The notes: generated from the letters alone by a model not told the origin. A stretch of 64,000 bases of DNA from Rhodospirillales bacterium (GCA_028288725.1 JAQGIC010000035.1:1-64000), one strand, 5' to 3'. Shown: positions 41,321-46,645, numbered from the stretch's first letter. Numbers and translations: made by a program.

Positions 41321-42298
41321 ATGTCTGAGCGTCATCATACAAAGGTCCTGATCATCGGTGCCGGCCCGGCCGGCTATACCGCCGCAATCTATGCCGCGCG
41401 CGCGAACCTGAAGCCGATCATGGTGCAGGGCATGCAACCCGGCGGCCAGATGACGATCACGACCGATGTCGAGAATTATCCGGGCTTCGCCGACGTGATC
41501 CAGGGGCCCTGGCTCATGGAGCAGATGCAGAAACAGGCCGAGCATGTCGGCACCAGGATGGTGTTCGACCTGATCACCTCGGTCGATTTTTCCAAGCGTC
41601 CGTTCGTCTGCACCGCCGATAGCGGCGACGTGTTCGTGGCCGAGACGGTGGTGATCGCGACCGGTGCCCAGGCGCGCTGGCTCGGGCTCGAAAGCGAGGA
41701 GCGCTATCGCGGCTTCGGCGTTTCGGCCTGCGCCACCTGCGACGGGTTCTTCTTTCGCAACAAGAACATCGCGATCGTCGGCGGCGGCAATACCGCGGTC
41801 GAGGAAGCGATCTATCTGACCAATCACGCCGACACCGTGACCCTGATCCATCGCCGGGACAGCTTACGCGCCGAGCGGATCATGCAGGACCGGCTGTTCG
41901 CCAATCCGAAGATCCGGATGAAGTGGAACACCGCGGTCGAGGAAATCGTCGGCGAGCAGAACCCGCCCCGCGTGACCGGCCTGAAGCTCAAGGACACGGT
42001 GACCGGCGCCGAAAGCGAACTGGCGGTCGACGGGTTCTTCGTCGCGATCGGGCACACGCCCGTGACCGACATCTTCAAGGGGCAGATCACGCTCGACGAC
42101 GACGGCTATATCGTGACCAAAGCGGATTCGACCGCGACCAATATTCCGGGCGTGTTCGCGGCGGGCGACGTCAAGGACAAGGTCTTTCGCCAGGCGGTCA
42201 CCGCCGCCGGCATGGGCTGCATGGCGGCGCTCGAAGCCGAGAAATTTATCGCGGCCCATGAGTCTCATGGGAAGACGGCGCTGCGCGCAGCCGAGTGA
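41321..42298 (+). CDS. trxB: Thioredoxin reductase (NADPH)
   Basis: A 325-residue cytoplasmic flavoprotein that reduces thioredoxin with NADPH. FAD motif LIIGAGPAGYTAAIYAARA, redox-active ACATCDG (C137, C140), NADPH motif AIVGGGNTAVEEA and the second FAD motif near GVFAAGDVKDK are all present. Length is normal. The following LysR gene starts 93 bases after the stop. Confidence 0.97.
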   Translation: MSERHHTKVLIIGAGPAGYTAAIYAARANLKPIMVQGMQPGGQMTITTDVENYPGFADVIQGPWLMEQMQKQAEHVGTRMVFDLITSVDFSKRPFVCTADSGDVFVAETVVIATGAQARWLGLESEERYRGFGVSACATCDGFFFRNKNIAIVGGGNTAVEEAIYLTNHADTVTLIHRRDSLRAERIMQDRLFANPKIRMKWNTAVEEIVGEQNPPRVTGLKLKDTVTGAESELAVDGFFVAIGHTPVTDIFKGQITLDDDGYIVTKADSTATNIPGVFAAGDVKDKVFRQAVTAAGMGCMAALEAEKFIAAHESHGKTALRAAE

Positions 42299-42391: not shown

Positions 42392-43285
42392 ATGGATTGG
42401 GATAAGCTGCGGGTCTTTCATGCGGTCGCGGAGGCTGGCAGCTTCACCCATGCCGGTGATGCGCTGAACCTCAGTCAATCGGCGGTCAGCCGCCAGATCA
42501 GCGGGCTCGAGGAGAGCCTGCAGGTGCCGTTGTTCCATCGGCATGCGCGCGGCCTGATCCTGACCGAACAGGGCGAGCTGCTGTATCGCACCGCGCGCGA
42601 CGTGTTCGCGAAGCTGTCGATGACCGAGGCGATGCTGTCGGAAAGCAAGGACCGGCCCAAGGGCCCGCTCAAGGTGACGACGACCGTCGCCTTCGGCTCG
42701 GCCTGGCTGACGCCGCGCATCCGCGAGTTCCTGGAGCTCTATCCGGAAATCACGCTCAGCCTGCTGGTCGACGACGGCGAGCTGGATCTGTCGATGCGCG
42801 AGGCCGATGTGGCGATCCGCATGGCCCCGCCGCGCCAGCCGGACTTGGTGCAGCGTCACCTGATGACCGTGCGCTCCCATGCCTATGCCTCGGCGGACTA
42901 TCTGAAGAAGCATGGCACGCCGACCCGGCCCGAGGATCTGGACGAACATCGGGTCGTGATCTACGGCGACGATTCCCGGCCGCCGACGGCCAGCATCAAC
43001 TGGCTGTCCGAAGTGGGCGCCAAGCCGGGCGCGGAACGCCGCCCGATCCTGAAGGTCAACAATATCTACGGCATCTACCGCGCCGTCCAGAGCGGGCTCG
43101 GCATCGGCTCGCTGCCCAACTACATGGGCCAGGAGACGACCGACCTCATCCGCGTGCTGCCCGAACTGTCGGGCCCGACGGTCGAAGCCTATTTCGTCTA
43201 TCCGGAAGAGCTGCGGCCGTCGAAGCGCATTGCGGTGTTCCGAGACTTCCTGATTCGCAAGGTCCAGGAATCGCGCCTGACCTGA
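42392..43285 (+). CDS. LysR-type transcriptional regulator
   Basis: A 297-residue LysR protein. The winged helix is at 1-62 (MDWDKLRVFHAVAEAGSFTH and LNLSQSAVSRQISGLEESLQ), the linker helix follows, and the effector-binding domain spans ~90-290. It resembles regulators found next to trxB in alphaproteobacteria. Same strand as trxB with a 93-base gap and its own terminator. Target and ligand unknown. Confidence 0.92.
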   Translation: MDWDKLRVFHAVAEAGSFTHAGDALNLSQSAVSRQISGLEESLQVPLFHRHARGLILTEQGELLYRTARDVFAKLSMTEAMLSESKDRPKGPLKVTTTVAFGSAWLTPRIREFLELYPEITLSLLVDDGELDLSMREADVAIRMAPPRQPDLVQRHLMTVRSHAYASADYLKKHGTPTRPEDLDEHRVVIYGDDSRPPTASINWLSEVGAKPGAERRPILKVNNIYGIYRAVQSGLGIGSLPNYMGQETTDLIRVLPELSGPTVEAYFVYPEELRPSKRIAVFRDFLIRKVQESRLT

Positions 43286-43315
43286 TCCGCGGCAAAACAC
43301 AGTTCCGCCTATGAG

Positions 43316-43340
43316 ATGCCCGCCTTTCGGCGGGCATTTT
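43316..43340 (+). terminator. Rho-independent terminator after the LysR gene
   Basis: ATGCCCGCC (43316-43324), TTTC loop, GGCGGGCAT (43329-43337), followed by TTT. It lies 31 bases after the stop. Confidence 0.85.
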
Positions 43341-43540
43341 CATGTATGTGGCAAGAGTTTGTCATGAAACAGTCAAATAACCGCAGGCGATGCGTTAGCC
43401 GCAGGGGTGACTTGCCCAATTTCAGGGTGGTTTCCGCAAGCAGACTGCCCAATTATTGCGCTGCGGGAACGGCGCGGCGCGGACAAACGCGACGCGGTTC
43501 CCCAAAGAATTCGCCGGCGAAAGCGACCGCCGGCACCGAG

Positions 43541-43579
43541 TTCCCAGGCCCCGTGCCTGGGAAAAGGGTCTTCGGATCC
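43541..43579 (+). other. Two hairpins just upstream of the first sRNA-like element
   Basis: TTCCCAGGC (43541-43549) pairs with GCCTGGGAA (43555-43563). GGGTC (43566-43570) pairs with GATCC (43575-43579) around a UUCG tetraloop with C-G closing pair, one G-U pair included. They may belong to the same RNA as the following element. They are absent from the second copy at 46107. Confidence 0.55.
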
Positions 43580-43580
43580 T

Positions 43581-43652
43581 ACGTCTCCCAGACGTGAAGC
43601 CTCCCTGTTGACTTACGCCCGGAACCGCAAGGTTTTCCGGGCGTATTTTTTT
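43581..43652 (+). ncRNA. Candidate sRNA with CCC and CCTCCC loops, copy 1
   Basis: Hairpin ACGTCT-CCC-AGACGT (43581-43595) is followed by a second weak hairpin AAG/CTT enclosing CCTCCCTGTTGA (43597-43614), then a strong terminator, TACGCCCGGAA/TTCCGGGCGTA with an inner CC-GCAA-GG cap (43614-43645), and seven T. Bases 43581-43614 are identical to 46108-46141. Exposed CUCCC motifs can pair with Shine-Dalgarno sequences, as in cuckoo/CcsR and alpha-r14 sRNAs of alphaproteobacteria; membership of a known family is inference. The 5' end could lie earlier, near 43541. Confidence 0.7.
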
Positions 43653-44046
43653 GTGCGCAATGTGGTTTTCGACCCAGAAGTGACTGCCCGGGCACAACTG
43701 GGGCACAACGGCGCTCCGCCATGCATCAAACCTCCCACCTAAAATCATTTGCCCCCCATGAGGCGCCGGCAGTGCTGTAAGCCCGACGCGGGAGGATACC
43801 TGTTGCGGGCGCTCCTGCCGGTCGGCATCAGCCTGGGAGCAGCCGATTGAAGAGGGACATCCTCAAGAGGGGTACCAGGCTTTCCACCCGGCCACCGCTA
43901 ATTCACCAACCACTGACCAGGCATCTGTCGGTGAAATTTTTCCCAGAATTCGTCTACCGGTATTCTACTAGCGATTCACTCAGAGGTTCGCAGAGGTTGA
44001 GCACGTTAGTAGTTCATCACCGAGCCCAGAGCCGTCCGCTATCTGA

Positions 44047-45882
44047 TCAAAAACCATGGGTAAGGATGTATCTTATAAATGCCGCATCCTCTTCCGGGGG
44101 CAATTCGGAAGCCGACATAAGTACTTGTGCGTATGCTGGACAGAGTAGTGCGTGTGGGGCGTCATCTGCTAAATTTTTTGATAGTTTCTTTAAGTCGACA
44201 CCATCTTTCACAGCCAGAAGAAGTGCCTTTTCTATCAGTCGCCCACCCAGCTCTGCACTTGGCGGCTGAGTGGGGTTTTTGGTGCCTTCCACCAGAATCT
44301 GGTTCATTACAGTGACTTCCAGTGTCACCAAGTCCTGAGGTAAGTACTTGGTAAGGTCGATACCTCCGCTTCTGAGGTACTGCCAACATAGCTCGGGGTC
44401 AGCTTTTTGAAGAACGTTCAGTTCGCGGAACATCAGGTCGGCAAGTGCAAGGGTGACATCATCTGGAGCTTGCCGGCGCAGACGTTCGGAAGCGGCGTGC
44501 ATGTGGGAGCGAAGAGCAAGACTGAAATCCGAAATTGGGAGACCCTTCAGACCTGTTTGAACCCACGTATCCTCAAGCTCAGACCAGTGGGAGCCGTCCG
44601 CTTTCCTAATGGCTTGTAGATCCGGTTCGGAATTTAGAGCTTTCTTCAGCGTTTCTCCCGTGGGTGCAGGACCATATCCACTGACTGCAAACATTTCGTC
44701 GGGCGCGACCTCGGTGACGACTTTTGCGTTGATCAGTTCGCTAACGCTCGGGTTCCAAATCGAGCTGGATGGAGTGCCGAGTGCCTTTGTGACAAACCAG
44801 GCGGGAACTCCCGCAGCGGAAAAGGCTGATCGGAAGTCCTGGTTGACGTAATCGACCCCGCCAAAGCTCGCACTGTGGAACCCAAGAACGGCGCCAGCGG
44901 CCAACCATCGCCGCTGACCACCGAGAAATACGATGATGCAGGCCGATTGACACTGCTTAGCGACAAACGTGTCCATTCCTCGGGCGATGATCATGTCGCG
45001 GATTTGAACAGCTTCTGCGACTCGACCGCCGAAGCTATCGAGGTGAACTACGTGGGCCTTCGGAGCATTGGCAAGCGCTGCTCTAAAGACATCAGCTTGC
45101 CCTCGCGCGAAGCCGCCGCTGATTTCAAGCTCGGTTCCATCCCGAAGGGTGCGAACACCCCTCGGGCCGAAGTCAGGATCCCCTATCGCGGCTTGGAAAG
45201 CATCGGCGAGTTGAGGCCACGCCTGCTTTACGAGCATGTGACCATCTTTCACTACGCCGCCGATTATCATGAGCATTGCCAACGCTGCCCACCCATGGCG
45301 AGTGCTTCGATTAGCCGAACGCCAGGTGCCGACGACCTGCCAGACAATCACGATGACAACGGATATCCAGGTGGCCAGTAACGCAACAACTGGGATGATT
45401 AGATTGCGGCTGTCCGACGTGCTAGCCAAAATGGCGAAGACTATTGCCGTAGTTGCGATGTTTCCCAGGAACCCGTTAACCCAGTAAGCCACTCCGAGTG
45501 GAAGCTCTCCGCGCCAATGCCTGACGACATAATTGGCGCGAACGGCTGGGGCCGCAGTCGCTACTTCCGAGCCAGAGAGATGAGGCCGAGGACCTGACGC
45601 GAAATCGCTCGAACCATTCTCATCTTGAACTACTTCGTCACCCGGCGCCTTGGCGGCAAGTGCTTGGCCGGCCATGGTCGGGGGAGGGACAAACAAACCT
45701 TCAATTTCTGATGCAGGGCGCCAAGACGGCTCACCAGGTTCCCAGACCTTGTCTTCCGGGGTAAGGGTGCCGCCGCGAACGAGGGCCAGCAACTCGGTAA
45801 ACGCCAGAGGACCCCTAGGTTCACCTCCGACGATCACGTGCCAGTTCGCATTACCGACGCTTGAACGTTCTTGACCCGACAT
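44047..45882 (-). CDS. GYF_2-domain, membrane-anchored ClpP/SppA-like protease
   Basis: A 611-residue protein. Residues ~13-64 are a GYF_2 domain (WHVIVGGEPRGPLAFTELL then WEPGEPSWRPASEI). A disordered linker follows to ~115, then a three-helix membrane module (~128-212, LPLGVAYWVNGFLGNIATTA). Residues ~240-400 resemble ClpP/SppA-type proteases: VVHLDSFGGRVAEAV, a nucleophile Ser313 in KQCQSACIIVFLGG and His336 in VLGFHSASFGG, as in periplasmic ClpP-like COG3904 proteins. The C-terminal ~200 residues are helical and unassigned. GC is visibly lower than in flanking genes. It is the only solid gene between the two sRNA-like copies. Confidence 0.8.
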   Translation of the reverse strand: MSGQERSSVGNANWHVIVGGEPRGPLAFTELLALVRGGTLTPEDKVWEPGEPSWRPASEIEGLFVPPPTMAGQALAAKAPGDEVVQDENGSSDFASGPRPHLSGSEVATAAPAVRANYVVRHWRGELPLGVAYWVNGFLGNIATTAIVFAILASTSDSRNLIIPVVALLATWISVVIVIVWQVVGTWRSANRSTRHGWAALAMLMIIGGVVKDGHMLVKQAWPQLADAFQAAIGDPDFGPRGVRTLRDGTELEISGGFARGQADVFRAALANAPKAHVVHLDSFGGRVAEAVQIRDMIIARGMDTFVAKQCQSACIIVFLGGQRRWLAAGAVLGFHSASFGGVDYVNQDFRSAFSAAGVPAWFVTKALGTPSSSIWNPSVSELINAKVVTEVAPDEMFAVSGYGPAPTGETLKKALNSEPDLQAIRKADGSHWSELEDTWVQTGLKGLPISDFSLALRSHMHAASERLRRQAPDDVTLALADLMFRELNVLQKADPELCWQYLRSGGIDLTKYLPQDLVTLEVTVMNQILVEGTKNPTQPPSAELGGRLIEKALLLAVKDGVDLKKLSKNLADDAPHALLCPAYAQVLMSASELPPEEDAAFIRYILTHGF

Positions 45883-46106
45883 CTGATCCTCACGCCTTCC
45901 TTGTGAAGGAATGCCTCCTTTGTCTCAAGGTTGCAAGAGCGTATGAATCACACGCTCGCGGCTCGATGATTGCGCATCTCGCTGGGCGATATGTCCCGGT
46001 CACATCAGAGCGGCGAAAAATGTCATTCACTCGCCGAATCAAACAGTTATTGGAAATCGCCTCGGACCATGAGAGCCATCGGTGGACCTATGGAGTCTGA
46101 GCATTT

Positions 46107-46173
46107 CACGTCTCCCAGACGTGAAGCCTCCCTGTTGACTTGGGCCGGACCCGCAAGGTGTCCGGCCTTTTTT
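46107..46173 (+). ncRNA. Candidate sRNA with CCC and CCTCCC loops, copy 2
   Basis: The same 34-base core as copy 1 (46108-46141) is followed by its own terminator: GGCCGGAC (46143-46150), CC-GCAA-GG cap, GTCCGGCC (46160-46167) and six T (46168-46173). The first stem is one pair longer here (CACGTCT/AGACGTG). Terminator stems of the two copies differ in sequence but keep the same GCAA cap. Its end abuts the stop of the convergent phosphoesterase gene. Confidence 0.7.
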
Positions 46174-46645
46174 ACGGGGCGATTTCGATCAGATCGACCG
46201 ACACGGTCGCGCCTGTGACGATCAGGCGTCCGAGCCCGATCGGCAGCGAAAACCGGCGGGGCCCGGCGCTGCCCGGGTTCACATACAGCACGCCGGCCCT
46301 TTCATGGCGGCCGGGGCGATGGGAATGGCCGTAGACCACGGCGTGAAAGCCGGCGGCGGCGGGATCGAGCGCAAGATCGTCGATCCGATGGATCACGCAG
46401 ATGGTCGCCTGTCCGACCATCAGCACGGCCGCCTCGGGCAGCGCCGTCGCCCAGTCGCCGATATCGACGTTGCCGCGCACGGCCGTGACCGGCGCCAGAG
46501 CCGCCAATTCGAGGAGGATCCGCGGATCGCCGACATCGCCCGCATGGATGATGAAGTCGCTGCCCCGCAACAGCGCCACGGCTTGCGGACGCAGCAAGCC
46601 ATGCGTGTCGGAGATCAGCCCAACGATGATGTCGCGTCCGCGCAA
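46172..46645 (-). CDS. YfcE/MJ0936-type metallophosphoesterase
   Basis: A 157-residue phosphodiesterase of the YfcE/Mre11-like family. All metal motifs are present: GLISDTHG (D13, H15), HAGDVGD (D37), RGNVD (N59) and YGHSHRP (H107, H109), with NPGSAG near the end. It acts on phosphodiesters of unknown identity in the cytoplasm. The start at 46645 is a TTG with GAGG seven bases upstream; no in-frame ATG precedes the first motif. It converges with sRNA copy 2. Confidence 0.88.
   Translation of the reverse strand: MRGRDIIVGLISDTHGLLRPQAVALLRGSDFIIHAGDVGDPRILLELAALAPVTAVRGNVDIGDWATALPEAAVLMVGQATICVIHRIDDLALDPAAAGFHAVVYGHSHRPGRHERAGVLYVNPGSAGPRRFSLPIGLGRLIVTGATVSVDLIEIAP

Follow-up and report, generated by a model that had tools for sequence, protein, structure and literature searches.

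The trxB–vtlR locus has so far been studied through the AbcR small RNAs (sRNAs) of rhizobia, Agrobacterium and Brucella. The gene order trxB–vtlR–abcR1–abcR2 has been published for Agrobacterium (PMC7486931), and in Sinorhizobium abcR1 and abcR2 are flanked by lsrB (PMC8844928). A second group of sRNAs, alpha-r8, is defined by a single-stranded 10-mer (UUUCCUCCCU; PMC12559287), and the CCUCCCU stretch of one of them, SisA, pairs near mRNA start codons (PMC12559287). For mobile DNA, islands in tRNA and tmRNA genes are recognised in the literature by a regenerated gene accompanied by a displaced fragment (Islander, PMC4383910), and prophages have been described in the sRNA genes of enterobacteria (Bobay et al. 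2013, as cited in PMC5502288). Here we describe a locus that resembles both kinds of system. It lies in a stretch of 64,000 nucleotides from a Rhodospirillales bacterium (GCA_028288725.1, JAQGIC010000035.1:1-64000), which we call the window.

The window carries the same 34 bases (ACGTCTCCCAGACGTGAAGCCTCCCTGTTGACTT) twice on the + strand, at 43581–43614 (copy 1) and 46108–46141 (copy 2), and this core was found nowhere else in the 5.54-Mb assembly. The identity had been reported in a first-pass annotation of the DNA and was confirmed by direct reading at both sites. The two copies are 87% identical across ~66 bp (E = 8e-15). As shown by RNA folding, both copies form an ACGUCU-CCC-AGACGU hairpin (P3, 43581–43595 in copy 1), an unpaired linker (GAAGCCUCCCUGUUGACUU) and an intrinsic terminator (43614–43652 in copy 1, 46142–46173 in copy 2, both + strand), with folding z-scores against shuffled sequences of -5.1 (copy 1) and -4.4 (copy 2). 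The two terminator stems differ in sequence, both are paired, and a C-GCAA-G cap is common to both, so that folding bears out the earlier description of a separate paired terminator with a kept GCAA cap for each copy. The linker of copy 1 holds the heptamer CCUCCCU (43600–43606, + strand), which is unpaired in the folding; its proposed anti-Shine–Dalgarno-like character is supported. The annotation had also placed two upstream hairpins at copy 1 and none at copy 2. They are indeed confined to copy 1, but there are three of them, all on the + strand: P0 (43513–43534), P1 (43541–43563) and P2 (43566–43579, with a UUCG loop). P0–P2 are absent from copy 2 in conserved form, the 13 bases 5' of its core being weakly P2-like.

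The core pattern (ACGTCTCCCAGACGTGAAGCCTCCC, with at most three mismatches) was present in 49 of 99 related genomes and, in a GTDB scan, on at least 119 contigs. Among the matches listed in GTDB are the genera Azospirillum, Rhodospirillum, Thalassospira, Kiloniella, Roseomonas, Reyranella, Magnetovibrio, Caedibacter and others. From 50 of these GTDB-listed stretches we derived a covariance model, which detected the RNA behind lysR in ~50 of 80 regions drawn from across the class. Two-sided changes were seen at 17 of the 19 modelled pairs (99 aligned copies); all 8 pairs of P1 and all 5 pairs of P2 have changed on both sides in relatives. The covariation score for the 99 copies was 0.488, whereas shuffling gave 0.162 and slid structures reached no more than 0.163, a large margin from an alignment that was fitted to the model and so carries a favourable bias. 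P3 shows little variation, and the changes that support it as a helix are therefore few. An intrinsic terminator followed every copy tested (194/194), with 151 different stem sequences. RNAalifold run on an initial MAFFT alignment recovered neither P1 nor the terminator, owing to the variable length of the terminators, and the covariance-model alignment was used in its place. The first-pass annotation had argued for a functional structured RNA, and had named a lack of covariation and of copies in related genomes as grounds for giving that up. Covariation is present at nearly all modelled pairs, a terminator follows all copies tested and other genomes hold further copies; the claim therefore stands. 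We conclude that copy 1 is a genuine sRNA gene, belonging to a family that spans much of the Alphaproteobacteria. At gathering cut-offs, Rfam reported only tRNAs in the whole window, and the copy 1 family has no entry of its own in Rfam 15.

Some regions behind lysR differ from this pattern. Three of them (L252, L269 and L277, in G180, G265 and G157, respectively) gave no model match and contain several CUCCC hairpin-loop stretches before a terminator-like stem; they are probable diverged relatives of the copy 1 family. Two others (L241:210-854 in G209 and L231:591-701 in G083) carry two to three tandem CCUCCC RNAs with differing hairpins. These resemble both the SorX and the suhB models, and are a possible bridge between the copy 1 family and AbcR/alpha-r8.

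In the window, the order of genes on the + strand is trxB, lysR and copy 1. The first is a trxB-like thioredoxin reductase gene (41321–42298; an ORF with Pyr_redox_2, E = 1e-56), at which the conserved trxB–lysR–sRNA locus starts. The second encodes a LysR-type regulator (42392–43285; HTH_1 and LysR_substrate domains) that is the positional counterpart of VtlR/LsrB, and that was found in 169 of 289 genomes of the class at E ≤ 1e-60. A LysR gene lies directly 5' of the RNA, on the same strand, for 129 of the 158 family copies that have at least 700 bp of upstream sequence, and in most genomes the distance between the two is ~250 bp. This linkage, together with the published trxB–vtlR–abcR order, places copy 1 at the AbcR locus.

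Two published types of binding site are enriched upstream of the family. The VtlR box (GCAT-N3-TG-N3-T) occurred in 28 of 172 upstream regions, compared with 3.9 in shuffles, and palindromes fitting the strict form of the PhaR consensus (PMC12542648) in 19 of 172, compared with 0.1. Upstream of the window copies both are absent, the VtlR box from either copy. Palindromes such as GATGTTGCGACGCAGCATC, located ~-110 to -90 from the core (for example in L117, L088 and L108), fit the PhaR/AniA consensus, which suggests that in many Rhodospirillales the RNA is controlled by PHB status. Relatives from the window's bacterial family share a further upstream block, TTGCG-TTTTTGCAGACGAGCCAG-N-AAATTCC-N-TGG. 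When upstream regions of the family were aligned, copy 1 proved to have a divergent version of this block (43387–43435, + strand), its putative promoter/operator, and copy 2 to have none. At the f1 family loci the block, which is strongly conserved there, reads TTGCG-TTTTTGCAGACGAGCCAG-NNNN-AAATTCCCGTTGG, lies ~-210 to -165 from the core and holds a palindromic CCAG...CTGG part; it is possibly the operator of the LysR regulator. A sigma-70 scan of the + strand before copy 1 and before copy 2 gave no promoter-like match.

The short, same-strand distance from lysR found in most genomes also allows the RNA to be seen mainly as a processed 3' UTR of the lysR mRNA instead of an independent transcript, and SorX, which is processed from a 3' UTR by RNase E (PMC6238624), is a precedent. 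We consider this unlikely, as a GC-rich stem with a T-rich stretch after it is visible by eye just past the lysR stop codon (~43315–43342), and as, in relatives, lysR and the RNA are separated by conserved blocks and operator-like motifs.

Comparison with a genome of the same genus (G001), which has one copy of the RNA, showed which tail belongs to which head. The 5' flank of the window, through copy 1, aligned with the lysR flank of G001 at 85% identity, while copy 2 matched the core and terminator of the single G001 copy at 95.7% over 69 bp. The terminator in G001 (AGGCCGGACCCGCAAGGTGTCCGGCC) is almost the same as that of copy 2 and is different from that of copy 1. Thus, in copy 1 the original head is joined to a new tail, and copy 2 has the original tail but no head. 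In G001, the genes that follow copy 2 in the window are located away from the sRNA; an empty site is therefore not demonstrable by both flanks, and the case for an insertion is built on the left flank, on the match between terminators and on analogy.

The arrangement in the window, all on the same strand, is a complete copy 1, ~2.5 kb of DNA and a headless copy 2. The DNA in between (43615–46107), which we take as the insert, has a GC content of 0.558, compared with 0.65 in both flanks. Its sole sizeable gene (44047–45882, - strand) encodes a 611-aa protein for which Pfam gave only a GYF_2 domain, and which had no match in PADLOC or the PDB. The protein has hydrophobic stretches, and by eye its middle part recalls ClpP/SDH-like proteases (SFGGRVAEAVQI ... 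CQSACIIVFLGG), a likeness not confirmed by Pfam. Beyond the terminator of copy 1, at 43690–43709 on the + strand, a repeat search found GGGCACAACTGGGGCACAAC, which contains two tandem GGGCACAAC units with a period of 11. These are the only such units in the 64 kb, on either strand, and they resemble arm-type integrase sites. No arm-type repeats were found at the right end of the insert. Neither an integrase nor a recognisable remnant of one was found within it, tblastn giving only chance-level matches, and the window's genome has no integrase of the subfamily associated with the attachment site (below). The insert is therefore best described as an element that has decayed or is mobilised in trans. 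The first gene past it encodes a YfcE-like metallophosphoesterase (46172–46645, - strand), and the stop codon of this gene abuts the T-tract of copy 2.

Headless copies of the core are found beside integrases elsewhere. In seven other genomes (G010, G034, G146, G328 (Reyranella), G329, G330 and G331 (Azospirillum endophyticum)), tyrosine integrases with Arm-DNA-bind_3 and Phage_integrase domains lie ~200 bp upstream of such copies. An integrase was present beside 7 of the 29 copies without lysR, compared with 0 of the 129 with lysR (Fisher p = 4e-6). The restored gene is also present in six of the seven integrase genomes, and is linked to lysR in five. In G146, both copies are on one contig, 10.5 kb apart and in the same orientation, with the integrase at the right end. 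G331 has the same arrangement over 21.5 kb, with DnaB and SLT-domain phage genes between the copies. A tandem direct repeat of period 11, such as GGGGACTTACTGGGGACTTA or GGTTACTAAATGGTTACTAA, follows the restored gene in all six pairs (6/6), and similar repeats occur near the integrase. At +60 to +200, repeats of this kind (at least 8 identical bases, period 11) were found for 12 of 189 copies, compared with ~5 of 1,468 sequence windows further downstream, and they were almost never found at other periods. From their position and form, we infer that they are integrase arm sites. Together, the integrases beside headless copies and the period-11 repeats indicate that the core acts as an attachment site.

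Other copies extend this picture. In G331, a period-11 repeat (TGGGCACATCATGGGCACA) also follows the displaced copy (L318), a hint that a second element may lie behind the first. Headless copies consisting of core plus terminator are also present on IMG/VR viral contigs and in a phage-like MAG region (L373:2926, L374:9938, L377:1445, L378:6980, and L136 in G332). They do not lie beside the integrases used as queries, and the copy in L378 is just upstream of the genes for the small and large terminase subunits; they are possibly phage-borne versions of the host sRNA. When phage and plasmid records were searched for the core, no phage record was found, and the one plasmid found was a 1.1-Mb plasmid of Tistrella.

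Could both copies nevertheless be working sRNAs with the same seed and separate promoters, as the first-pass annotation proposed? Both fold well and have intact terminators, and the alpha-r8 siblings SisA–D of Caulobacter share a seed under unrelated promoters (PMC12559287). However, copy 2 has neither the conserved upstream block nor the hairpins P0–P2, no promoter-like site was found before it, and its placement fits that of a displaced attachment-site fragment. The single copy in G001 ends in a terminator like that of copy 2, and the homologous headless copies in other genomes adjoin integrases. Two parallel sRNA genes are thus improbable, and copy 2 is probably not a second working sRNA gene. 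An ordinary tandem duplication, as for AbcR1/AbcR2, after which copy 2 lost its 5' half and the GYF_2 gene was gained in between, both copies perhaps being expressed, is about as unlikely: true tandem copies with their own upstream hairpins do exist in Thalassospira (L067, 373 bp apart) and in G307, and alpha-r15 sRNAs are in tandem at this locus in Rhizobiaceae (PMC8844928, PMC3712013), but in the window the similarity of copy 2 starts exactly at the core, the GC content of the insert is foreign, its period-11 arm repeats are like those of integrase-bearing islands, and headless copies in other genomes are linked to integrases.

Why, then, are two identical cores split by an insert? We propose that this is because mobile elements also use the RNA gene as a landing site. 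Copy 1 would be the gene for a trans-acting sRNA behind trxB and a VtlR/LsrB-like LysR gene, and its RNA would be made up of the hairpins P0–P3, the unpaired linker and the intrinsic terminator. The core, comprising the 15-bp inverted repeat of P3 and the linker, would also serve elements with a tyrosine integrase as their attachment site. Such elements would bring a core copy and a terminator of their own, so integration would cut the sRNA gene within the core and restore it on one side, while leaving a headless core with the old terminator on the other. Both ends of one such element would then lie in the window. It would by now be reduced to ~2.5 kb, with a single cargo gene and without an integrase, and the cores of copy 1 and copy 2 would be its left and right copies of the attachment site. 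The insert would have supplied the new terminator of copy 1 and pushed the old one away. We estimate a probability of roughly 0.8 that copy 1 is an sRNA gene restored with a new terminator, with its core as the attachment site, and that the insert is the remnant of an element and copy 2 the displaced 3' end. To a wider proposal we would give clearly less than even odds: that mobile DNA repeatedly targets the anti-Shine–Dalgarno sRNA gene at the AbcR locus, with P3 as attB, that the elements swap its terminators, and that phages carry their own versions of the regulator.

If true, these proposals would fill a gap in sRNA annotation, as the trxB–vtlR locus would hold a structured sRNA in many other Alphaproteobacteria. 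Seed and locus would connect the AbcR, alpha-r8 and SorX sRNAs, so that a common origin could be tested. A defined attachment site outside tRNA genes would allow integrative elements to be mapped precisely in Azospirillum, Reyranella and relatives, and the window would be an example of an element rewriting the 3' end of a host regulator.

How does the RNA compare with sRNAs already described? The best Rfam relatives of the two copies are SorX, SorY (RF02651) and suhB/mmgR, all below threshold. For SorX (RF02784), copy 2 scored 38.2 bits (E = 6e-8) and copy 1 21.3 bits, compared with a cut-off of 46.6; for suhB (alpha-r8, RF00519), copy 1 scored 24.4 bits and copy 2 24.1 bits, compared with a cut-off of 41. 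Membership of the cuckoo/CcsR or alpha-r14 families, to whose loops the first-pass annotation had likened those of the window, was not supported, as neither was among the Rfam matches to either copy at E values up to 10. AbcR was compared with the window RNA through its Rfam model, its locus and its published description; the model (ar15, RF02345) did not match either copy at E values up to 10, and over the 289 genomes of the class it gave no match anywhere, controls included, so that this class-wide search carries no weight. One lysR-linked RNA from another genome (L237) does exceed the SorX cut-off. Bona fide alpha-r8 copies are present separately in the window's own genome, on contigs 64 and 114.

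Like AbcR1 and AbcR2, copy 1 lies behind trxB and a vtlR/lsrB-like gene, and its product is a multi-hairpin RNA with an anti-Shine–Dalgarno motif; the VtlR box is also enriched upstream of its wider family. In contrast to AbcR, where UCCUCCC is in the loop of the 5' hairpin, the motif in the window RNA is in the linker 3' of P3, and the VtlR box of the AbcR promoter is missing in the window. With alpha-r8 (MmgR, SisA–D), the window RNA shares a CCUCCCU that is unpaired between a hairpin and the terminator, and PhaR-like palindromes upstream of many members of its family, as for mmgR. However, the single-stranded 10-mer of alpha-r8 is not kept, the window having AAGCCUCCCU, which is identical at 7 of 10 positions, and the copy 1 family occupies another locus. 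SorX and SorY of Rhodobacter have CCUCCCUGUUG in common with the window RNA, and cmscan also places the CCUCCCU heptamer in the consensus of both, whereas SorX is described as a product of the 3' UTR of RSP_0847 (PMC6238624). Therefore, the window RNA is most like AbcR in place and most like alpha-r8/SorX in seed, and by the criteria tested is a member of none of them. From the shared CCUCCCU seed and the position at the AbcR locus, we infer an Hfq-dependent anti-Shine–Dalgarno regulator; by analogy, the copy 1 RNA most likely binds Hfq and its CCUCCCU covers the Shine–Dalgarno regions of metabolic and transport mRNAs. A crude search for complements of the seed in its own genome gave 61 sites, of which 2 are the sRNA's own, compared with 33 for the reversed pattern, a difference that says nothing about targets.

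The insertion has its closest counterparts in the islands of tRNA and tmRNA genes and the prophages of sRNA genes. The likeness lies in the regenerated target and the displaced 3' fragment in the same orientation, and, in the window's relatives, in the tyrosine integrase at one end. The differences are that the element in the window has lost, or never had, an integrase, and that the target here is an alphaproteobacterial anti-Shine–Dalgarno sRNA. Both this kind of sRNA and this kind of insertion are known; what is new is the absence of the family from Rfam and the combination of the two at this locus.
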